DNA of 45,685 bases, from positions 1-45,685 of the IMG/VR virus record IMGVR_UViG_3300029787_005342; one strand, 5' to 3'. Both the position numbers and the translations under genes were made by a program. The notes beneath the pieces were generated by a model. It saw only the letters and a program-made list of their open reading frames with translations, did not search any database and had not been told where the DNA came from. Shown in pieces: positions 4,176 through 45,684 of the stretch. Origin of the DNA: a virus. Each line of letters begins with the position of its first letter. Within the stretch, counting starts at the first letter, position 1.

Positions 4176-4610
4176 ATGAAGTTGATATCACACAGAGGAA
4201 ACATCACTGCATCCAATCCTAAACTTGAAAACACGCCAGGTTACATTGAACTAGCGTTAGCAACATATGACTGTGAAGTAGATATTTGGTTTGACAACAA
4301 CAAATTTTATTTGGGCCATGATGGCCCTAAAATAGAAGTGTCTAAACATTTTGTAACACATCCGGGATTGTGGTGCCATGCAAAACATTATGCGTCATTA
4401 CAAGCATTGCTAGACATTGGTGCCCACTGCTTTTTCCATAAACATGATGACTACACCGTGACAAGCAAAGGAGTCATTTGGGCTTATCCAGGAAAAAAAG
4501 GAGATAAAAATACTGTATGTGTGCATCCTCATGAGTTAGACGTACAAGATGTAAAAAATTTTTATGGTGTATGTGCAAATAATATTAAGGATTATGAGGA
4601 TATAAAATGA
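4176..4610 (+). CDS. Short glycerophosphodiesterase-like (GDPD) protein
   Basis: A protein of 144 residues starting MKLISHRGN. The HRG motif at residues 6-8, the ExD pair in CEVDIWF and the following GHDG match the metal site and general acid/base positions of GDPD TIM-barrel enzymes, which cut glycerophosphodiesters or transfer alcohol phosphates. It is far shorter than the usual 230-250 residues, so it may be a minimal or partial barrel. It overlaps the next gene by ATGA, which links it to the nucleotidyltransferase and the RuBisCO-like protein. The activity is inference. Confidence 0.6.
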   Translation: MKLISHRGNITASNPKLENTPGYIELALATYDCEVDIWFDNNKFYLGHDGPKIEVSKHFVTHPGLWCHAKHYASLQALLDIGAHCFFHKHDDYTVTSKGVIWAYPGKKGDKNTVCVHPHELDVQDVKNFYGVCANNIKDYEDIK

Positions 4611-5320
4611 ACATAGTAATACCAATGGCAGGCGCTGGATCGAGATTCGAAAGTGCAGGCTATACTTTCCCCAAACCATTGATTGAAGTTGAAGGGCAAC
4701 CAATGATACACAAAGTTGTTAATAACTTAAACATTCAAGGCAGATATATTTTTTTAGTGCAAAAAGCACATTATGAAAAATATAATTTAGAAAATTTATT
4801 AAACATGATTTCGCCAGGATGTGAAATAATTCAGCTAGAAGGGTTGACTGAAGGAGCGGCATGCACAGTCCTAACAGCAAGAGATCATATTGATAACGAT
4901 GAACCATTAGTAATCGCTAATTCGGATCAGTATATTGAATGGAATGCATTTGAAACTATTTCCGAATTTTCGAATGAAGGTGTTGATGGAGGAATATTAA
5001 CATTTAGTTCAGTTCATCCAAAACACAGTTTTGCAAAGATTGATGGCCAAGGACATGTTACTGAAGTTGCTGAAAAGAAACCAATATCTACAAATGCAAC
5101 AGTTGGAGTATACTTTTGGAAAAAAGGCAGTGATTTTGTTTACTATGCAGATCAAATGATAGAAAAAAATATCCGCACTAACAATGAATTTTATGTATGT
5201 CCTGTGTATAATGAAGCCATAGGCGATGGCAAAAAAATAATAACAAGTATGGTTGATAAAATGTGGGGCATGGGAACACCTGAAGAGTTAGACAACTTTT
5301 TACAAAACTATAAAAAATAA
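4607..5320 (+). CDS. Sugar-phosphate (or alcohol-phosphate) nucleotidyltransferase
   Basis: A 237-residue NTP-transferase fold protein. The N-terminal MAGAGSRF and PKPLIEV give the nucleotide-binding G-x-G-x-R and lysine, and VIANSDQYIEW carries the metal-binding aspartate. Such enzymes make NDP-sugars, or CDP-alcohols in the LicC-like branch. Length fits the short single-domain class. It is translationally coupled to the GDPD-like gene (ATGA) and to the RuBisCO-like gene (TAATG), so these three probably serve one pathway that activates a phosphorylated small sugar or polyol. Confidence 0.85.
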   Translation: MNIVIPMAGAGSRFESAGYTFPKPLIEVEGQPMIHKVVNNLNIQGRYIFLVQKAHYEKYNLENLLNMISPGCEIIQLEGLTEGAACTVLTARDHIDNDEPLVIANSDQYIEWNAFETISEFSNEGVDGGILTFSSVHPKHSFAKIDGQGHVTEVAEKKPISTNATVGVYFWKKGSDFVYYADQMIEKNIRTNNEFYVCPVYNEAIGDGKKIITSMVDKMWGMGTPEELDNFLQNYKK

Positions 5321-6510
5321 TGCAATTTTATAATCCAAACATAGACACACAAAAATATGTTATAGCAACATATTGGATGAAATCAAAGAATGCTGACCTA
5401 AGGAAAACAGCCTGGGATCTTGCAATAGGGCAAAGTGTTGGTAATCCAAATGTAAGGAACCGTTGGGAAACTGAAGAACTATTTGAACAATCATCATGTG
5501 TCATAATGCATGAAAGAGATTCCCTTAAACATTTGACACAAGGTTATGTAAAAATAGGCTTTCCTATAATAAACACTGATTGGTCTGGTGATGGCATAAG
5601 CCATCTATTATGCCAACTTATGGGCGGCCAAGTTGACATTGACACTTTTGACTCATGTAGATTAACACACATTCAGTTTCCAACACATATCCAAGACAAA
5701 TTTTTAGGCCCTAAGTTTGGAATCACTGGCATGAGAGAATATACTGGACAAAAAGACAAACCATTTAGCGGAGCTATTGTGAAGCCTAAAACGGGTATGG
5801 ATGCAACAACACTACTAGAAATGGTTAAAGAATTGGTTGATGGAGGTTGTGACTTTATCAAGGAAGATGAGATCATGAGCAATCCAACATTTTGTCCTAT
5901 TGAAGAGAGAGTTGACCTTATTGCAAATTGGATGGCCAAACAGTCACGCAAAGTAGTATATGCTGTGTGCATAAACGGAGACCATGATGTAATATTAAAC
6001 AGAGCAAAAAAGGTATCTGAACTAGGTGGCAATGCTGTGCATATTAATTTTTGGTCAGGACTTGGAGTATATGGAGCAGTAAGAAGACTTGATCTACCTT
6101 TGTTTATACATTTTCAAAAATCTGGCGACAAAGTTATCACAGACAGTAGACATCAATTTGGAATTGATTGGCCAGTTATTTGCCAACTAGCAGGAATGCA
6201 AGGCGTTGATAGTATACATGCTGGCATGTGGGGTGGGTATCTTAGTGATGATGAAGAAGATTTGAAGACCACTATAAAAGTGTTGCATGATCATAATGTT
6301 GTGCCAGCACTAAGTTGTGGAATGCATCCGGGACTAGTACAAGCAAATGCAAGACAATTCGGCAACAATTTTATTGCAAATGTAGGAGGAGCCATACATG
6401 GTCATCCAGGAGGCACACTTGCAGGAGCCAAAGCTATGAGACAAGCCATAGACAAAACCCCAGGTGCAGAATACGACCAAGCCATTGCAAAATGGGGTTT
6501 GGTTAAGTGA
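5320..6510 (+). CDS. RuBisCO-like protein (form IV)
   Basis: A 396-residue RuBisCO large-chain homologue. Present: VKPKTG with K155 and K157 (equivalents of K175 and K177 in RuBisCO), GGCDFIKEDE with K181, D183 and E184 (the carbamylated lysine and metal ligands), H264, H300 and a GGAIHGHPGG phosphate loop. Missing: R295 becomes F265, H298 becomes S268, and loop-6 K334 becomes Y307. It should therefore not fix CO2. Known RuBisCO-like proteins catalyse enolisation, isomerisation or decarboxylation of phosphorylated sugars or thio-sugars. Here it is coupled to a nucleotidyltransferase and a GDPD-like gene, and to a glycosyltransferase-like gene by a GTGA overlap. The marine metagenomic 'IV-GOS' group is a plausible home but untested. 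Confidence 0.88.
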   Translation: MQFYNPNIDTQKYVIATYWMKSKNADLRKTAWDLAIGQSVGNPNVRNRWETEELFEQSSCVIMHERDSLKHLTQGYVKIGFPIINTDWSGDGISHLLCQLMGGQVDIDTFDSCRLTHIQFPTHIQDKFLGPKFGITGMREYTGQKDKPFSGAIVKPKTGMDATTLLEMVKELVDGGCDFIKEDEIMSNPTFCPIEERVDLIANWMAKQSRKVVYAVCINGDHDVILNRAKKVSELGGNAVHINFWSGLGVYGAVRRLDLPLFIHFQKSGDKVITDSRHQFGIDWPVICQLAGMQGVDSIHAGMWGGYLSDDEEDLKTTIKVLHDHNVVPALSCGMHPGLVQANARQFGNNFIANVGGAIHGHPGGTLAGAKAMRQAIDKTPGAEYDQAIAKWGLVK

Positions 6511-7214
6511 TCGCAGTATGCGTATCAGGATTAGCTAGATCAGGTTATAAAAAAGCAATTCAAATTGCACAAGAAGTATTTCCTTATGATTTTTTTTACA
6601 TGCAGTGGAAAGGATATGATCAACCTGAAGTTGCAAATTGTCAATTCTTCGATGAACCAATATATGATTACCACAATCTACTAGAAACAAAATACAAACC
6701 AGATTGCCACATATGGAGAAGATATACCAGACCAAACACTGGAAAAATTTTTAGAAAGCCTGGACTTTTAGAAAAAACAAAACACAATTCCAAACAAACA
6801 TTGGCACATTATTGGCTTACTAAAACCTTGCCTGAAAAATATACAACAATTATAAAATTAAGATATGATACTTTAGTATCAAAAAAAGTTGATTTTAAGC
6901 CTCTGCTAAAAAAATGCGTTGAAGAAGATACAGTGATTGGCATTGCAGGAAGTGTGCCAGGAAGAGATGTTGATTCTCCACTGAAAGTACATTCATACAA
7001 AGATTGCAAAAGATGTCCAGGACCATATCTATGGGACCATTTGGTATTTCATCCAAGATGGAAATTAAAAAATGTAGAAACACTTTTCAAGGACAAAAAC
7101 TTGATGGGGGCAGAATGGGGATTTTATCAAGTGCTACATGCCCAATGGAACGACAACAATTATCTAAACGTTGAAGGTGGTAATGTGTTGACAGCACATG
7201 CAAACGTAATATAA
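6507..7214 (+). CDS. Putative glycan-synthesis protein (nucleotide-sugar transferase-like)
   Basis: The start is GTG at 6507, overlapping the RuBisCO-like stop by four bases. The 235-residue protein begins with a strand (IAVCVSGLARSGY) and has IIKLRYDTLV near residue 113, a pattern like the acidic site of some capsule glycosyltransferase-like families. A C-terminal GGNVLTAHANV is also visible. No firm family. The context of nucleotidyltransferase, RuBisCO-like protein and FkbM genes supports a glycan role. Confidence 0.5.
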   Translation: MIAVCVSGLARSGYKKAIQIAQEVFPYDFFYMQWKGYDQPEVANCQFFDEPIYDYHNLLETKYKPDCHIWRRYTRPNTGKIFRKPGLLEKTKHNSKQTLAHYWLTKTLPEKYTTIIKLRYDTLVSKKVDFKPLLKKCVEEDTVIGIAGSVPGRDVDSPLKVHSYKDCKRCPGPYLWDHLVFHPRWKLKNVETLFKDKNLMGAEWGFYQVLHAQWNDNNYLNVEGGNVLTAHANVI

Positions 7215-7221
7215 TAGGACA

Positions 7222-7839
7222 ATGCACACATTAGATGAATATGGATGGCATATACTCCATGGCGACAATGGTTATGGATTAGCAGAAGTTAACAGAAGTA
7301 TAATGGTGCAAGGCCCAGTGGATAGATATTGCAAACAAAAAAACTGTGCTGTAGAAATAGGTTCATACTATGGATTTACAACCAAATTACTGAGTACACA
7401 TTTTAGTAAAGTATATGCCTTTGACTTGGATACCGAAGTAGCTAAATGTTTTGTTAAAAATATGGCAAAATTTAAGTGTGAGAATGTTGTATTCAATGCA
7501 CATGGACTTTCCAATAGCGAAAAATATATTACAAATATAAACACAGGCCATTACATGAATAAAAGCATTGCTGATTCTCAAAAAACTTTTTTGGTTAAAA
7601 AACTAGATGATTATAATATTGATCCGATCGACTTTTTAATTGTAGATACTGAGGGACATGAACATGCCGTGCTTGAAGGATCTATTAACACTATTGAAAA
7701 AACAAACCCAGTAATAATTTGTAAATTTCATAATAGTGCAAACGAAGGGGAAGATATTTTGACCAAACAATTAGGATATAAGTTTGTTCAACAAGTAAGC
7801 AACAACGATAGATTATATATTCATATGGAGCAACTATAA
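7222..7839 (+). CDS. FkbM-family methyltransferase (1 of 4)
   Basis: A 205-residue class I SAM-dependent methyltransferase. VEIGSYYG at residues 44-51 is the SAM-binding loop and YAFDLD the following acidic strand; IVDTEGHE near residue 138 is the FkbM signature. These enzymes O-methylate sugars or similar acceptors. It shares its opening (DEYGWHILHGD) with the next gene, which starts right after its stop, so the two are tandem paralogues. The acceptor is unknown. Confidence 0.85.
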   Translation: MHTLDEYGWHILHGDNGYGLAEVNRSIMVQGPVDRYCKQKNCAVEIGSYYGFTTKLLSTHFSKVYAFDLDTEVAKCFVKNMAKFKCENVVFNAHGLSNSEKYITNINTGHYMNKSIADSQKTFLVKKLDDYNIDPIDFLIVDTEGHEHAVLEGSINTIEKTNPVIICKFHNSANEGEDILTKQLGYKFVQQVSNNDRLYIHMEQL

Positions 7840-8520
7840 TTGGAAACATACGATTACTATGGGTGGCATGTAAGCATGGAAGATATAATGTATAGGAACC
7901 TTCTAAAGGAAAATGCAAACATCATAGATGCAGACAAAGATAAGTTAGTTAAAATTATTAACAAGCATGTAACAAACAGGAGTACTGCTTTGGATATTGG
8001 ATGCCATTATGGATTTATGACACAACTTTTATGTAGACATTTTAATACTGTGCATGCCTTTGATTTTAACAATGATGTATTTGAATGTTTTTTAAAAAAT
8101 GCACAAAAATTTAATCTCAGTAATGTTGTTCCGCATCCATATGGACTTGGAGACAGTAACAGAAAGGTTGCTACAAAAGATTGGTTTGCAAAAATAGGCA
8201 GAAGAGGACCGTTGGGTAATCATGTTGACATGCAAGGAAAAAAATTAGATCAGCACATTAAAACTTTAGACAGTTTAAAAATACGTGATGTTGGACTAAT
8301 GTTGATAGACACAGAAGGATTTGAACTTATGGTATTGCAAGGCGCGGATCAAACTATACGTAAGTATTCACCAGTGATAATTTTAGAGTGCCACAGTAAA
8401 AAAGAATTAACTAGAAAATTTGGATACAAAAAGGAAGCTATCATGGTCCATATGATACAACTTGGGTATAAAAATAAAGGATTAATAAACAGATCAGACA
8501 TATTATTTGTAAAGGAGTAA
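7840..8520 (+). CDS. FkbM-family methyltransferase (2 of 4)
   Basis: A 226-residue methyltransferase with LDIGCHYG at 51-58, VHAFDF, and LIDTEGFE near residue 160. The TTG at 7840 directly follows the previous stop; I prefer it over ATG 7876 because the N-terminal YDYYGWHVS aligns with YGWHIL of the upstream paralogue. It is followed by the HAD gene after one base. Probably a tandem duplicate with a different acceptor. Confidence 0.82.
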   Translation: METYDYYGWHVSMEDIMYRNLLKENANIIDADKDKLVKIINKHVTNRSTALDIGCHYGFMTQLLCRHFNTVHAFDFNNDVFECFLKNAQKFNLSNVVPHPYGLGDSNRKVATKDWFAKIGRRGPLGNHVDMQGKKLDQHIKTLDSLKIRDVGLMLIDTEGFELMVLQGADQTIRKYSPVIILECHSKKELTRKFGYKKEAIMVHMIQLGYKNKGLINRSDILFVKE

Positions 8521-8521
8521 A

Positions 8522-9076
8522 ATGAAATACGTATTAACAGACATAGATGGAGTGTGTTTGAATTGGACCAAACAATTCAACAAATTTTTAGCATACTATC
8601 ATCCAGATGTAACACTTGACGACCCCACTAAGGACTACGAGGACGTTGTCCACATCATGCATGACTTTAATAGATCAGCATGGATGGGGTGGTGCGAACC
8701 ACTACGTGATGCAGTTGATATACTAACAAAGTTTAAGGAACGGGGATTTGAAATACATGGATGCACAGCTATGGGATTTGATCCATATGCCATAGCCGCA
8801 AGGAAAACAAACTTAGAAAGATATTTTCCTAATATTTTTAGTCGATTAGATACCACTTCAATGGACACAGGATCAACCAAAGAAAAATGGCTTGAACAAT
8901 ACCGTGGAAAACAATGCATATGGGTTGAAGATAAATGGATAAATGCTAAGGCAGGCGCAGACATGGGTATACAAACATTTTTAATGCGTCAACCCTACAA
9001 CGCACAATATGATGATAACAAAATTATCAAGGTTGACAACTGGCAACAGATATATTACTATATAAACACAAAATGA
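8522..9076 (+). CDS. HAD-superfamily phosphatase
   Basis: A 184-residue protein with all four HAD motifs: TDIDGVCL (nucleophile D7 and acid D9), the threonine of GCTAMG, the lysine of STKEKWL and the acidic WVEDKWINAKAGADMG. The insertion region between motifs I and II is helical. HAD enzymes of this size dephosphorylate sugars or nucleotides. It lies between FkbM and glycosyltransferase genes and overlaps the next by four bases, which suggests a sugar-phosphate substrate, perhaps in the same pathway as the nucleotidyltransferase. Confidence 0.8.
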   Translation: MKYVLTDIDGVCLNWTKQFNKFLAYYHPDVTLDDPTKDYEDVVHIMHDFNRSAWMGWCEPLRDAVDILTKFKERGFEIHGCTAMGFDPYAIAARKTNLERYFPNIFSRLDTTSMDTGSTKEKWLEQYRGKQCIWVEDKWINAKAGADMGIQTFLMRQPYNAQYDDNKIIKVDNWQQIYYYINTK

Positions 9077-28957: not shown

Positions 28958-29467
28958 ATGCAAATATTAACTTTAGAAAACACTGCATACTTGCTGAACA
29001 AGATTCCTGATCAAGTAGAAGAAGACATGAGATTTGCTGTGTTGGATAATTCAGATCCAGCGAGTCCGGACTTCTTTTTTGTGCCATTAATTTACTTAGA
29101 ATCATTTGCGTCTCCCTCTGCAGTGCTAGAAATAGAAAATCAAAAAATTCAAATGCCTTTGGACTGGCACATACTACTAGGCGATCCTGAATGCGGTGAC
29201 TTGGAGATACTGCCACTAACATCGTTGAATGATAGATCATTTCATGCGTTTTGTTTTAATCCAATTACAGATTCAATGCCATCCTATAAGGAAGTAAAAA
29301 TAACAAACATTTATAATGAAGTTGAATGGTTTTTTCCAAGAACAAGATCAAACCAACTGCTCACAGTTCCATTATCAACTGATAGTCAACCCAACTGTGC
29401 ATTTTTTGTCAAAGAAATCAATAGAAACAATGATGTCATTAGTTTGAATAATTTGTTCCATGCTTGA
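28958..29467 (+). CDS. Conserved phage-type protein, 169 residues
   Basis: An acidic, beta-rich protein with MPLDWHILLGDPECGDLEIL near residue 66-85 and HAFCFNPI. I associate this sequence pattern with conserved unknown proteins of marine T4-like phages, from memory only. It overlaps kdsA by 8 bases and heads a unit running through kdsA and an oxygenase. Confidence 0.72.
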   Translation: MQILTLENTAYLLNKIPDQVEEDMRFAVLDNSDPASPDFFFVPLIYLESFASPSAVLEIENQKIQMPLDWHILLGDPECGDLEILPLTSLNDRSFHAFCFNPITDSMPSYKEVKITNIYNEVEWFFPRTRSNQLLTVPLSTDSQPNCAFFVKEINRNNDVISLNNLFHA

Positions 29468-30266
29468 TTATAAATTTAATAACGATGCACCCTTAAGAAT
29501 TATTGCTGGTCCTTGTCAGATAGAATCTGAAGAACATGCCATGATGATGGCTGAAATAATACAAGGCATTTGTTCGGATGTTGGAGTGCGTTGGGTATAC
29601 AAATCATCCTTTGACAAGGCCAATAGATCTTCTATAGAAGGCAAAAGGGGTGTTGGCCTGAGACGTGGACTAGAGATACTTGAAAAGATAAAAAAGAAAT
29701 ATAATGTTCCAATCATAACAGACGTGCATGAACCAGACCAGTGTGGTGTCGTTGGTGAGGTCGTGGACATAATTCAAATCCCTGCATTTTTGTGTAGGCA
29801 AACAGATCTAATAATGGCAGCTGCTGAAACAAAAAAAATTATAAATGTAAAAAAAGGACAGTTCATTTCTTACACAGATGTTGATAATATTAAAATAAAA
29901 GTTAACGAAGCATGGAACGATCAGTTTATGATTACTGAGCGGGGCACTATGTTTGGCTACAATAATCTTGTTGTTGACATGAGAGGCTTTACATATATGA
30001 AAAATTTATGTCCTGTCATTTTCGATGGCACACATTCTGTCCAACAACCAGGAGCAAATGGAAAATCTTCAGGTGGTGATAGAAACATGGTTGAACCTTT
30101 GTGTCTATCAGCAGTTGCACAAGGCATTGCGGGTGTGTTTTTAGAAGTACATAATGATCCCGATACTGCTCCGTCAGATGGACCTAACATGTTGACGCCT
30201 GATTCTTTTAGAAAATTAATTACTAAACTTAAAATACTTGATTCAACTGTAAAACAAAAACTATGA
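29460..30266 (+). CDS. kdsA: 3-deoxy-D-manno-octulosonate 8-phosphate synthase
   Basis: A 268-residue TIM-barrel enzyme condensing phosphoenolpyruvate with arabinose 5-phosphate to Kdo-8-phosphate, precursor of LPS or capsule Kdo. IAGPCQIES, YKSSFDKANRSS, TDVHEP, IPAFLCRQTD, FDGTHSVQQPG and LEVHNDP are family motifs. The cysteine of AGPC marks the metal-dependent class. No kdsB, kdsC or kdsD homologue is adjacent, although the HAD protein at 8522 could be a phosphatase for it. It stands apart from the main glycan region, between small phage-type genes; KdsA is known in some marine myoviruses. Confidence 0.93.
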   Translation: MLDYKFNNDAPLRIIAGPCQIESEEHAMMMAEIIQGICSDVGVRWVYKSSFDKANRSSIEGKRGVGLRRGLEILEKIKKKYNVPIITDVHEPDQCGVVGEVVDIIQIPAFLCRQTDLIMAAAETKKIINVKKGQFISYTDVDNIKIKVNEAWNDQFMITERGTMFGYNNLVVDMRGFTYMKNLCPVIFDGTHSVQQPGANGKSSGGDRNMVEPLCLSAVAQGIAGVFLEVHNDPDTAPSDGPNMLTPDSFRKLITKLKILDSTVKQKL

Positions 30267-34212: not shown

Positions 34213-34400
34213 AATACAAATGTGTTGAAAGAGGCAAAGACTATAGAATTTTCCAAAACACGTTATTAGGAATATTTGTTTCGTACACTTTAGAAGATAG
34301 TAGAAATACAACACACAAGGGTGGTACAGAGTTTAATGTTAAACTAACAGACTATTATTTTAAAACGCTGGAACAAGTTAGGAAAAAATTACATGCCTGA
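34209..34400 (+). CDS. Small hypothetical protein, 63 residues
   Basis: Starts MKYKCVERGKDYRIF, basic and beta-rich, with RNTTHKGGTEFNVKL; coupled on both sides by overlaps of 4-8 bases. No family recognised. Confidence 0.65.
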   Translation: MKYKCVERGKDYRIFQNTLLGIFVSYTLEDSRNTTHKGGTEFNVKLTDYYFKTLEQVRKKLHA

Positions 34401-34953
34401 TATAGATATTGACTTTGCTGACAGACAAAAAATTTTAGATGTGTTGCCACACACACGTGCAACCATATGGGATGACAAGGGTATCAAATCACACAACACT
34501 GGAGTATACTTTACTGACATTCCAACTATTCCAGGCACTGATCAATCTGCTTTTGACCACAAGGTAGCAGATGAACTTGGATATTTTAAATTAGACTTTT
34601 TGAACGTAAACATATATTCGCAAGTGCAATCAAGACAACATCTGCAAGAACTGTTTGATAAAGAACCACCATGGCACAAATTACAAGATCAACACTTTGT
34701 AGATCAGTTGTTTCATCTCAACGGACACTATGATGTTGTTTCGAAGTTACAACCAGTTACACTGGAACAATTGGCAGCTTGTCTGGCCATAATACGTCCG
34801 GCTAAAAGACATTTGGTAAACAAAAATTGGAATGAGATACTGGAAGAAGTTTGGAAAAAACCAACTGACAATCAATATTTTTTTAAGAAAGCACACGCAT
34901 TTTCATATGCTGGTGCAGTAATTGTGCATATGAATTTGTTAGACCTTACGTAG
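34393..34953 (+). CDS. Mini C-family DNA polymerase (DnaE)-like protein
   Basis: A 186-residue protein that starts with MPDIDIDFADR, the motif carrying two of the catalytic aspartates of DNA polymerase III alpha. GYFKLDFLNV, AIIRPAKRH and FFKKAHAFSYA match later DnaE palm and finger motifs (KMDFLGL, RPGP, KSHAxAYA), but the hundreds of residues normally between them are missing. It is thus a highly condensed palm/fingers relic, or a conserved accessory protein; I recall similar short proteins in marine T4-like phages. Whether it polymerises DNA is doubtful. It ends convergently with the - strand gene at 34939. Confidence 0.75.
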   Translation: MPDIDIDFADRQKILDVLPHTRATIWDDKGIKSHNTGVYFTDIPTIPGTDQSAFDHKVADELGYFKLDFLNVNIYSQVQSRQHLQELFDKEPPWHKLQDQHFVDQLFHLNGHYDVVSKLQPVTLEQLAACLAIIRPAKRHLVNKNWNEILEEVWKKPTDNQYFFKKAHAFSYAGAVIVHMNLLDLT

Positions 34954-41564: not shown

Positions 41565-41582
41565 TAATTAGTTTTGAATCAT

Positions 41583-42089
41583 ATGAGTAACATTGAAAAA
41601 TATAATTCTTTAAACATAGATGAAGTGTTTATGAAAAAAGGATTTGTCGTGCAAAGTTTCGAAAACTTGATCAATTGGGCACGTTCAGGATCATTGTGGC
41701 CAATGACATTTGGACTTGCATGTTGTGGAGTGGAGATGATGCACTCCTACATGAGTAGATATGACTTGGATCGATTAGGAGTCATACCAAGAGGGTCACC
41801 AAGACAATCTGATGTCATGATAGTTGCAGGCACACTGACAAACAAGATGGCTCCTGCACTTAGAAAAGTATATGATCAAATGCCGGAACCTCGTTGGGTA
41901 ATATCAATGGGATCATGTGCCAATGGTGGCGGATACTATCATTATTCATATTCTGTAGTGAGAGGATGTGACAGAATAGTTCCTGTGGATATCTATGTAC
42001 CAGGATGCCCTCCCACAGCAGAAGCATTGATGTATGGCATCATGATGCTACAAGACAAAATTAAAAAGAAAAAGAAAATTTATAGATGA
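41583..42089 (+). CDS. nuoB: NADH-quinone oxidoreductase subunit B
   Basis: A 168-residue protein, ATG 41583 (a TTG three codons upstream is unlikely). C47, C48, C112 and C142 are the four ligands of cluster N2, the last iron-sulphur centre of complex I, next to the ubiquinone site. [22 protein letters not shown] and [10 protein letters not shown] are strictly conserved family segments; it looks intact and similar to alphaproteobacterial and mitochondrial NuoB/PSST. No other nuo gene is present in the window, so it would have to join a complex encoded elsewhere. It overlaps cytochrome b by ATGA and follows nth by 18 bases. Confidence 0.95.
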
Positions 42090-43330
42090 GCAACAACGAC
42101 CTACAAGGATACAAGAAAACTCTCAACTCACCTTACACTGGCATCAAGGGTTGGATAGACTCAAGAATGCCACTTATAAGGCTAATGGAGGCAGAGTATC
42201 TTAGGTTTCCTGTGCCTAAGTCATTAAATTATTTTTGGTCTTTTGGCGGCATTGCAATGTTCTGTTTGATAGGATTAATATTAACAGGAATATTTTTAGG
42301 ATTTCATTACAAGCCATCAGCCGAAGAAGCATTTGATTCTGTTGAAAGAATCATGCGTGATGTAAGTTTTGGTTGGTTGATAAGATATCTTCATGCCAAC
42401 CTTGTGTCATTTTTCTTTATTGCTACCTACATACACATCTTCCGAGCCATGTACTTTGGATCTTACAAAGCGCCACGTGAACTGGTTTATATATTTGGGT
42501 TGACCATGTTTGTATTGATGATGGCCACAGCATTCCTTGGTTACACTTTGCCATGGGGGCAGATGTCCTATTGGGGAGCAACTGTTATAACCAACTTGTT
42601 TACTGCCATACCAGTAGTAGGTGAACCAATATTACTATTGCTACTAGGAGACTTTACAGTGGGCGATGCAACTGTTAATAGATTCTATGTGCTACATTGG
42701 TTGTTGGCGTTTGCTATTGTGGGTCTTGTTGTCTTTCACGTGATTGCACTGCACATGACTGGTTCGAACAATCCGACAGGATCAGAGCCTCAGAGCTGGG
42801 ATGAAACAGTAACATTTCATCCATATGTAACCATCAAAGATCTTAATGCAACAATATTTTTCTTTATCATAGTGGCCTTTGTATTGTTTTACTATCCTAA
42901 CATACTTGGCCATTCAGACAACTACATCCGAGCCAATGCAATGGTAACACCTGCACACATTGTACCTGAATGGTACTTTCTTCCATTCTATGCAATACTA
43001 AGAGCTATTCCAGACAAGTTAATGGGTGTGCTGGCCATGTTTGGTTCAATTGGACTGTTAGGATTGTTGCCTTGGTTAGATACATCAAAAGTTAGATCTT
43101 GTCTATTCAGGCCTGTGTGGAGATACTGTGTGTTGTTGTTTGCAATTAACTTCTTTATCTTAATGTATGTGGGTGCAAAACCTGCCGAAGGCATATATGT
43201 TTTACTTGCACAAATTGGTACAGCATATTGGTTTGCGTTTATATTAATACTGGCTCCTGTGGTTGGCTTTTTAGAAACGCCTAGACAACCTCTTACAATT
43301 ACAAATTACCTTGCCTCAAAAAAACATTAA
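42086..43330 (+). CDS. petB: Cytochrome b of the bc1 complex
   Basis: A full-length 414-residue membrane protein. The heme ligands are H103/H117 and H204/H218, each pair 14 apart as in bc1 rather than b6f, and PEWY at 294-297 forms part of the quinol-oxidising Qo site. [13 protein letters not shown] is the cd1 region. It oxidises ubiquinol. The Rieske protein and cytochrome c1 are not here, unlike the usual petABC operon. The start overlaps the nuoB stop (ATGA). The sequence shows no sign of decay. Its composition looks like that of its neighbours, as judged by eye. Confidence 0.95.
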
Positions 43331-43543: not shown

Positions 43544-44740
43544 ATGAGCACCATAATTGGAATCAGAAATTTAATTTTAAGAATATTGTTTAGGGTGATG
43601 CGTCCTATGATCTTTTTGATGGATCCTGAACAAGCACACTATTCAATGAAACGTATTGGTGTGTTCTTAGGCAGTAACTTCATAACCAAAGCATTTACAA
43701 GTTTACTATTTGACTATGGACACAAAAGTCTAAATGTAGAAGTGGATGGAATCCAATATAGAAATCCAATTGGACTGTCTGCAGGATTTGACAAAGACGG
43801 TGAACTTACAAAAATATATCCTAATCTTGGTTTTGGACTTGCTGAACTAGGATCAATTACAGGAGAAATATGTCCAGGCAATCCTGGCAAACGTTTGTTT
43901 AGAATGGTCAAGTCTAAGTCTATTGTTGTGTGGTATGGACTTAACAACATGGGTGCAGAAAAACTTTCTGCAAGACTTGAAGGGCAAAAGTTTGGACGAT
44001 TGCGTGTTGGCATCAATGCCGCACTTTCAAACATGTCATCTGAATTTGATCTTGACTCCTCTATTGCCGACTATCTCAAAACAATGACACTGTTTAAAGA
44101 CATAGGTGATTACTACACAGTTAACATCAGTTGTCCTAACACACAAGAAGGTGAACCATTTGTCGACAAAGACAAACTTGATGCACTGTTGACTGCAATC
44201 AACACACACATCAGGCCTATCACAGCAAAACCTATCTATGTGAAATTGGCAGCTGACATGTCTGTGGAAGAAATAGACACCATTGTTGATGCATGTGTTG
44301 AACACAAAATGGAAGGTGTGGTGTGTACCAATCTTGCAAAGCCTAAGTACAACACTGAACACAGGCCAGAAGAATATCCTACAACCAAAGGATTGTTGCC
44401 TGCAGGCAAAGGCGCAATGAGTGGCTTACCGCTACAAAGAATATCAACAAATGTTGTGCGTCATGTGTACAGAAGAACTAGAGGTAAACTTACAATCATA
44501 GGAGTTGGCGGGATATTCAATGCCAGAGATGCTTATGAAAAAATTACTTCAGGTGCAAGTTTATGTCATATGATTACAACCATGATATTCGATGGTCCAC
44601 AAAACATCAACGAGATCAACAGAGGACTTGTTAAATTACTCAAAGCGGATGGTTTCAGCACCATAGCAGAAGCAGTTGGATCACGTAATCCGTTGCCAAA
44701 AATTACTCCAGCAAAACTTAAATTAGTGCAATCTGCCTAG
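43544..44740 (+). CDS. pyrD: Dihydroorotate dehydrogenase, class 2-like (quinone)
   Basis: A 398-residue enzyme. The N-terminal hydrophobic, basic part (LILRILFRVMRPMIFLMDPEQAH) is the membrane-binding domain of class 2 enzymes that pass electrons to ubiquinone; GLSAGFDKDGE, GNPGKRLFR, YGLNNMGAE and IIGVGGIFNARDAY are FMN and substrate motifs. The catalytic-base position reads N194-I-S-C197-P-N, with cysteine as in class 1 rather than the class 2 serine, and the following loop is QEGEPF. It catalyses the fourth step of pyrimidine synthesis. Stop codons of pyrD and of the convergent DnaE-like gene share the palindrome CTAG. Confidence 0.92.
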   Translation: MSTIIGIRNLILRILFRVMRPMIFLMDPEQAHYSMKRIGVFLGSNFITKAFTSLLFDYGHKSLNVEVDGIQYRNPIGLSAGFDKDGELTKIYPNLGFGLAELGSITGEICPGNPGKRLFRMVKSKSIVVWYGLNNMGAEKLSARLEGQKFGRLRVGINAALSNMSSEFDLDSSIADYLKTMTLFKDIGDYYTVNISCPNTQEGEPFVDKDKLDALLTAINTHIRPITAKPIYVKLAADMSVEEIDTIVDACVEHKMEGVVCTNLAKPKYNTEHRPEEYPTTKGLLPAGKGAMSGLPLQRISTNVVRHVYRRTRGKLTIIGVGGIFNARDAYEKITSGASLCHMITTMIFDGPQNINEINRGLVKLLKADGFSTIAEAVGSRNPLPKITPAKLKLVQSA

Positions 44741-45684
44741 TTATAGAACTTATCGATTGATATTGATTCACATTCAATGGCTTCAATGTAATCTGAATTG
44801 TTCAAATGTTTGATCCTACCAATGCCACGCACCACATCATTATCTGTATATGAAAAGGGTCGATTGATAGTGATATCTACGTAATAACCGTTGTCTACTC
44901 CTAGTGTGACAAATGTTACGTATTTTTTATTTCCGGCTTTGTAGACCCTTCCATTTGCAATTAAACCGCAAAATTCTACACGGTCAAGATATAGATGCTT
45001 TGTGTAAAATCCTGGTAAGAAAGATTTGTTTGACCACCAACCATATTTTTTGTATTGATACACAGGATCGTCCCATCGATCTGTTTTGGAAATAGTTGTA
45101 GGTTCCAATCCAGCACGTTTGGCTTCTGTCTTGTACACCCAACGTTTGTAAGATCCTTTGCAATGTTTGAGAGCACCTTTCCAAAATCCTTGCACATTGT
45201 GTGCTTTTTGATATGCCAACGCCCATATCAGTCTTCCTAAATTTACAGCATGTGCTCTGCACAATCCAAAGCCACTAAGAGATTGCAATGTGCGGAATAT
45301 TTCATCTTTGCGTGGATGGTTGCCTAGTCGAGTCATAAACTCCATTACACGTTCTTCATTTTTTTTAGCAAACGCTCTGCGATACATGTCTGCATCATAG
45401 TGATTACATCCAATCAGTTTGGATATCTGCATGATGGCATCATCTTCACACACCACTACATCAGATATTCTATCCGAAGTCCAGTCATTGAAAAAGGCCG
45501 CTTTGCGTCTACCCTCCATAGCCACTGGACGTATTAGTGCTGTGGCAAACACACAATCAAGCATTGACTGTGGGCGTATGGCTCGGAACAATCTTCGCAT
45601 GGCTGGTGATTCTCCCTGGGTAACTCCCAACACGTCTCCCCGACTCAACAAAGACGAAGTAGCCTCGTCGATCTCTGGATATTC
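44737..45684 (-). CDS. Divergent DNA polymerase III alpha (DnaE-like), C-terminal part
   Basis: The frame is open to the right edge, so the N-terminal part with the PHP domain and catalytic aspartates lies outside; 315 residues are visible. SRGDVLGVTQGESPAMRRLF corresponds to the DnaE segment TxGVFQxESxGM; FGLCRAHAVNLGRLIW to the KSHAxAYA helix; and VEFCGLIANGRVYKAGNKKY to the OB domain. The motifs are clear but strongly divergent from bacterial DnaE, which argues for a phage polymerase. The direction is opposite to the respiratory genes, and the 3' ends overlap by 3 bases. Confidence 0.8.
   Translation of the reverse strand, partial: EYPEIDEATSSLLSRGDVLGVTQGESPAMRRLFRAIRPQSMLDCVFATALIRPVAMEGRRKAAFFNDWTSDRISDVVVCEDDAIMQISKLIGCNHYDADMYRRAFAKKNEERVMEFMTRLGNHPRKDEIFRTLQSLSGFGLCRAHAVNLGRLIWALAYQKAHNVQGFWKGALKHCKGSYKRWVYKTEAKRAGLEPTTISKTDRWDDPVYQYKKYGWWSNKSFLPGFYTKHLYLDRVEFCGLIANGRVYKAGNKKYVTFVTLGVDNGYYVDITINRPFSYTDNDVVRGIGRIKHLNNSDYIEAIECESISIDKFYN

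Follow-up and report, generated by a model that had tools for sequence, protein, structure and literature searches.

A phage-borne clade of RuBisCO-like proteins coupled to a nucleotidyltransferase, with a possible role in glycan synthesis

The RuBisCO-like protein and its gene cassette

The RuBisCO-like protein (RLP) described here belongs to an uncharacterised clade that is probably found chiefly in T4-like and jumbo phages, with bacteria and archaea as scattered further carriers. The coupling of its gene to that of a nucleotidyltransferase (NTase) is far beyond chance. We give even odds that this clade catalyses a reaction new to the RuBisCO fold during the production of nucleotide-activated phosphosugars for surface or virion glycans. 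The window, meaning the whole stretch of DNA analysed, is the IMG/VR viral record IMGVR_UViG_3300029787_005342 (45,685 bases). The RLP region within it consists of the following features:

4176..4610, + strand: mini-GDPD-like protein of 144 aa, phrog_34507 (1.1e-19), with motifs HRG, EN, ExD, GHD and HAK
4607..5320, + strand: NTP_transferase-type nucleotidyltransferase (NTase) of 237 aa, phrog_3980
5320..6510, + strand: RLP of 396 aa, assigned by PF00016, structure model, tree and active-site alignment
5860..5871, + strand: codons of K181-E184 (carbamate lysine and metal ligands), from sequence and alignment
6507..7214, + strand: probable glycosyltransferase-like protein, overlapping the RLP stop and co-occurring with RLP loci of the window type (20 loci); a Pfam search gave no match
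7222..7839, + strand: FkbM-type methyltransferase (PF05050, 4e-10)
7840..8520, + strand: FkbM-type methyltransferase (PF05050, 9.4e-10)
8522..9076, + strand: HAD-family phosphatase-like protein, phrog_420, a regional gene and not a conserved partner of RLPs

The stop codon of the GDPD-like gene overlaps the NTase ATG at 4607-4610, the NTase TAA and the RLP ATG overlap at 5320, and the RLP TGA overlaps the GTG of the following gene at 6507-6510. An earlier note on this DNA had described the RLP as translated together with the NTase and the GDPD-like protein; the three reading frames are present as claimed, with all junctions overlapping. The HAD phosphatase that it placed in the same glycan region also exists, but such genes are rare beside RLPs (3/62 loci), which rules out the gene at 8522 as part of the cassette core.

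Fold and clade placement

The RLP is matched by PF00016 (RuBisCO_large) at 1.7e-38, with 133 bits against a cut-off of 30.1. Its AlphaFold2 model (pLDDT 90.1) finds Pyrococcus RuBisCO 2d69 as the best PDB match (E 6.6e-32), with Geobacillus MtnW 2oek (1.9e-31) also among the top matches. A domain above the curated cut-off, combined with the (beta/alpha)8 fold of the model, places the protein in the RuBisCO superfamily.

In a maximum-likelihood tree, the window RLP joins 43 other proteins, 23 of them viral and 20 cellular, at 100/100. A second tree, from which the longest branches were removed and to which named OiaX and MtnW references were added, consists of four clean groups, each at 100/100: the window RLP family, the OiaX-like proteins, RuBisCO and MtnW. 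In these trees, which comprise sequences other than the published IV-GOS, IV-Photo, IV-AMC, IV-Aful and R. rubrum DeepYkr (Rru_A1998) proteins, the family is a clade distinct from RuBisCO, MtnW and OiaX-like RLPs. A presumed DeepYkr protein (L154) groups with MtnW, apart from the window RLP family. The profile scores are likewise far from either group, at 145.9 bits for the mtnW model (cut-off 513.6) and 143 bits for the OiaX model (cut-off 700). Placement among the methionine-salvage enolases, the outcome that the earlier note named as speaking against its reading, did not occur in the phylogeny it called for; the RLP falls outside both MtnW and OiaX.

Active site

Residue equivalences were taken from a MAFFT alignment of 70 sequences and from an independent HMMER alignment against PDB chains. 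The carbamylated lysine and metal ligands reported previously, K181, D183 and E184, correspond to RuBisCO K201, D203 and E204 and are kept in 44/44 family members, as are K155 and K157 (RuBisCO K175 and K177). S332, G334, G356 and G357 are equivalent to RuBisCO S379, G381, G403 and G404; the first three are kept in 44/44 members and G357 in 43/44.

Other positions are altered throughout the family: E60 is replaced by G37, T65 by N42, W66 by P43, N123 by G103, H294 by Q266 and K334 by an invariant Y307. The R295 position is occupied by K267 in most members and by S in five viral ones, the H298 position by D270 in most and by A in five viral ones, and the H327 position by H300 in most and by Q in six viral ones. 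The earlier note had assigned F265, S268 and Y307 to R295, H298 and K334. Y307 is right, but F265 and S268 lie two positions off, both alignments giving K267 at R295, D270 at H298 and Q266 at H294; the changes at E60, T65, W66 and N123 were absent from it. Of the set examined for bona fide RuBisCO (E60, T65, W66, N123, K175, K201-E204, H294, R295, H327, K334 and S379), E60, T65, W66, N123, H294, R295 and K334 are all changed, and the protein falls outside bona fide RuBisCO.

The viral RLPs with Q at H327 are L014, L022, L049, L058, L072 and L076, and most of them also carry S and A at R295 and H298. Because the same viral sequences tend to carry all three changes, there may be two RLP substrate types, and the pattern suggests that the viral subclade with Q at H327 acts on the second.

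The NTase and mini-GDPD proteins

The NTase matches PF00483 (NTP_transferase) with 46.2 bits against a cut-off of 21.2, and its G9, G11, R13 and F14 are invariant, forming a GxGxRF-type motif; it belongs with the NTP_transferase sugar nucleotidyltransferases. The PDB entry closest to the family profile is 4evw (2.2e-34), deposited as a nucleoside-diphosphate-sugar pyrophosphorylase.

The mini-GDPD model has a pLDDT of 96.7, and its best PDB match is a GDPD, although a weak one (E 0.047). The N-terminal 48 columns align to full GDPD at 2.1e-7 and the HRG, EN, ExD and HD motifs are kept, while a search for the Pfam GDPD domain in the 144-aa protein gave no match. The label GDPD-like is supported by the motifs, the N-terminus and a weak fold match, but the protein lies outside the GDPD phosphodiesterases as defined by PF03009 over the full barrel.

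Gene coupling at RLP loci

After dereplication, 62 non-redundant viral RLP loci were retained. The NTase is present in 61 of the 62, the mini-GDPD in 51 and a cupin of ~107 aa in 45, and the gap between NTase and RLP is <450 nt in 49/61 loci. The commonest viral order is NTase-cupin-RLP with the GDPD downstream; the window-type order is GDPD-NTase-RLP, without the cupin. The NTase lies within 4.5 kb of the RLP in 20 of the 22 cellular loci; the two exceptions sit on short contigs (3.1 and 3.7 kb). Across nine whole genomes (0.9 to 7.8 Mb), including Legionella, Azospirillum, Elusimicrobia and Nanoarchaeia, the gene next to the RLP is the best genome-wide match to the NTase family in 9/9 cases and the only family match in 4/9. 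The neighbourhood search proposed in the earlier note, for which a lack of NTases would have counted against its reading, thus recovers both the NTase and the GDPD-like partner.

RLP, GDPD, cupin and NTase all occur together in Azospirillum and Elusimicrobia. In Azospirillum oleiclasticum, GDPD, RLP, cupin and NTase stand in a row at L098 3942-6749; besides these, the genome encodes a true RuBisCO plus a second RLP, which falls in the OiaX-like group. LicD (PF04991, 6e-44) adjoins the Legionella RLP and WavE adjoins the Verrucomicrobia RLP.

Distribution in phages and cells

At least 338 IMG/VR stretches encode RLP relatives, as found with patterns derived from the family alignment, and RLP-bearing contigs reach 274 kb. 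T4 gp23 is encoded on 12/40 related RLP contigs and a terminase above cut-off on 15/40, which rules out a host-chromosome or chimeric origin of the RLP. A tblastn search of cultured INPHARED phage records found no RLP. One scan of cellular genome contigs yielded 22 cellular RLP loci, distributed over Pelagibacterales, Legionella, Azospirillum, Verrucomicrobia, Elusimicrobia, Bacteroidota, Patescibacteria and archaea; within Legionellaceae, the RLP is found in 4/140 genomes, with one weak partial match in addition. The RLP of a Crocinitomicaceae contig is identical to a viral RLP, and some cellular loci, such as this one, may be phage DNA in bins. The viral nature of the contig, the wide occurrence of the family in phages and the cupin lying between NTase and RLP in most members all go beyond the earlier note.

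Cassettes without the RLP

The cassette counts given here are no unbiased census, as loci more similar to the queries ranked higher. Searching with the mini-GDPD located 79 new viral loci, of which 12 have an RLP; a dependence of NTase and GDPD on the RLP is thereby ruled out. A HAD_2 domain is fused to the N-terminus of the NTase in 39/59 non-redundant RLP-less loci versus 8/62 RLP loci (p 1e-9). In some RLP-less phage cassettes, RpiB (PF02502, 9.4e-30) is fused to the C-terminus of the NTase, accompanied by a PfkB-like kinase, a KdsC-like HAD protein, transketolase halves and, in some cases, the cupin known from RLP loci; other RLP-less cassettes carry an HpcH/HpaI aldolase. RpiB, transketolase and PfkB occur in 0/62 non-redundant viral RLP loci. 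For RpiB, the absence from RLP loci (p 0.025) is weak on its own because RpiB loci are few (5/59 RLP-less loci). The cupin occurs with the RLP or with RpiB, including in the cultured cyanophage Bellamy.

NTase lineages sort by cassette type, with 14 changes versus a shuffled mean of 61. The RLP is paired with several of these lineages, and the window NTase is closest to those of HAD-NTase cassettes. Since the clade of the window NTase adjoins the HAD-fused clade, the RLP probably joined such cassettes on more than one occasion, as judged from the NTase sequences. The several NTase partners, together with the proximity of the window NTase to the HAD-NTase types, imply that the RLP could act in place of another step or alongside it.

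Synechococcus phage Bellamy gp206 (L241 172-1329) carries the annotation 'phosphatase' but consists of an NTase fused to RpiB; it shares 73% identity with L202, and the cupin follows it. The 'phosphoheptose isomerase' genes near mini-GDPDs (S-SM2 gp207/gp210, Bellamy gp212) are misannotated HAD-like proteins of ~103-109 aa. The 584-aa NTase reading frame of one phage (L222 4250-6001) contains an insertion that resembles an intein; it closes with VAHN, followed by a cysteine.

Other genes of the contig

At 41574-43330 and 43544-44740, the window encodes NuoB (PF01058, 1.2e-27), cytochrome b (PF00033, 5.4e-64) and PyrD, and these genes adjoin a DnaB-like helicase and endonuclease III. Relatives of the cytochrome b were retrieved in 75 IMG/VR loci, several of which adjoin phage primase, DnaB or UvsW. 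DNA polymerase pieces are located on the - strand at 34393-34953 (186 aa) and 44737-45651 (304 aa); they match different PHROG polymerase families (phrog_11778 and phrog_405), and their sequences suggest that the polymerase is split or decayed. A DAHP synthetase I family protein resembling KDO-8-phosphate synthase is encoded at 29460-30266, and the left contig end carries the C-terminal part of a xanthine/uracil permease (116-877; PF00860, 1.7e-28).

Proposed function and alternative explanations

We lean slightly towards a function of the RLP as a sugar monophosphate isomerase partnering the NTase, which would activate the product for a surface or virion glycan. The RLP, dependent on metal and carbamate, would isomerise a sugar monophosphate in a reaction of the enolisation type, and the co-translated NTase would use an NTP to activate the product, a sugar phosphate or polyol phosphate. 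The glycosyltransferases and methyltransferases nearby would then build the activated unit into the glycan; in Legionella, a LicD-type phosphotransferase would perhaps insert it. The cupin, where present, probably performs a further sugar rearrangement, and the mini-GDPD may, as a guess, act on a phosphodiester or phospho-intermediate that arises along this pathway. LicD-type enzymes move phospho-units from CDP donors, which hints at CTP as the nucleotide and at a phosphodiester linkage, and would account for the presence of the mini-GDPD. The clade, the conserved metal site, the gene coupling and the lack of RpiB modules at RLP loci are read from the sequences; the isomerase chemistry, the order of steps and the glycan destination are what we infer. 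Counting against this reading are the small number of RpiB loci, the pairing of the RLP with several NTase lineages, the loci that combine the RLP with a HAD-NTase fusion (8/62) and the lack of the cupin in the window type.

The earlier note had left isomerisation and decarboxylation side by side, with activation by the NTase to follow. Isomerisation is favoured because RpiB isomerase domains occupy the same place in RLP-less cassettes; the activity would also fit known RLP chemistry, as the R. rubrum DeepYkr RLP isomerises a phosphorylated ketose (PMC4958253). The NTase is a nearly constant neighbour of the RLP. The glycan setting that was proposed at the same time gains support from the glycosyltransferases, epimerases and FkbM proteins that adjoin phage loci and from LicD and WavE in cells.

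It is unlikely that the RLP instead decarboxylates a phosphorylated sugar acid, as OiaX does, leaving a shortened ketose phosphate for the NTase to activate. OiaX is an RLP decarboxylase with the same fold and metal site, and the HpcH/HpaI aldolase in some RLP-less cassettes is an enzyme that makes keto acids; however, the window RLP lies outside the OiaX clade and far below the OiaX cut-off, the OiaX-like clade keeps R295 and K334 where this family has K and Y, and it is an isomerase, RpiB, that fills the slot in some RLP-less cassettes. The product of the cassette could also be an unusual phospho-metabolite with no part in glycans, used by the phage to modify DNA or lipids, for example, or as a phosphonate-like headgroup. 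GDPD and LicD do indicate phosphodiesters, and the NTase family resembles cytidylyltransferases of non-sugar phosphates in weak matches, but the glycosyltransferases, sugar epimerases and FkbM methyltransferases adjoining many loci, and WavE and LicD beside cellular RLPs, make this improbable. Least credible, and very improbable, is that the RLP gene simply serves routine metabolism, be it carbon fixation (as a viral rbcL) or methionine salvage. Automatic annotation labels phage RbcL-like genes as carbon fixation (PMC12607003), whereas here H294, E60, T65, W66, N123 and K334 are all changed, the clade is separate from RuBisCO I/III and MtnW at 100/100, and the recurrent RLP neighbours include no methionine-salvage or Calvin genes.

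If the role in glycan synthesis holds, it would be the first anabolic function of this kind for the RuBisCO fold. RLP functions in the literature compared are catabolic or belong to salvage, with substrates that come from methionine salvage or derive from apiose; a clade linked to nucleotide activation would give the fold a biosynthetic branch and a testable new reaction. It would also caution against equating viral rbcL-like genes with carbon fixation. Azospirillum oleiclasticum, which is in culture and holds the full set outside phages, makes direct testing possible.

Comparison with known systems

Phage RbcL-like genes are already known. In the excerpts of PMC12607003 considered, landfill-virus 'rbcL' genes are listed as carbon-fixation AMGs and are RbcL-like in a tree, and an earlier viral RbcL from Great Salt Lake is cited; excerpts of PMC1821046 report 65 GOS RuBisCO homologues in unplaced new groups. 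The former shares with the window the presence of RLP genes in phages and the latter their presence in ocean metagenomes, and the unplaced GOS branches may be the same family as the window RLP. Those excerpts describe neither a gene cassette nor a link to glycans, and in them the active site of this family is not analysed. Searches of the literature on RLPs with nucleotidyltransferase, phage, LPS or Legionella returned no description of the cassette; in the literature searched, neither the link of the clade to nucleotide activation nor the RpiB alternative turned up either.

MtnW (2oek, 2zvi, 3fk4, 4nas) shares the fold, the carbamate site and likely the single phosphate site, but forms a separate clade and differs at the K177, H294 and R295 positions. 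OiaX (3-oxo-isoapionate-4-phosphate decarboxylase) and its relatives likewise share fold and metal site and differ in clade, in retaining R295 and K334, and in profile score. The R. rubrum DeepYkr RLP is an MTRu-1P isomerase whose product is passed to a cupin (PMC4958253). As compared by description rather than by sequence, both systems would join an RLP isomerising a phosphorylated ketose to a cupin acting on the product, whereas the R. rubrum system serves sulphur salvage and has no NTase or GDPD described. The RpiB-NTase/PfkB/KdsC/cupin cassette of Bellamy and IMG/VR phages shares the NTase, cupin and mini-GDPD families with the RLP cassette, and has an RpiB isomerase domain and a kinase in place of the RLP.
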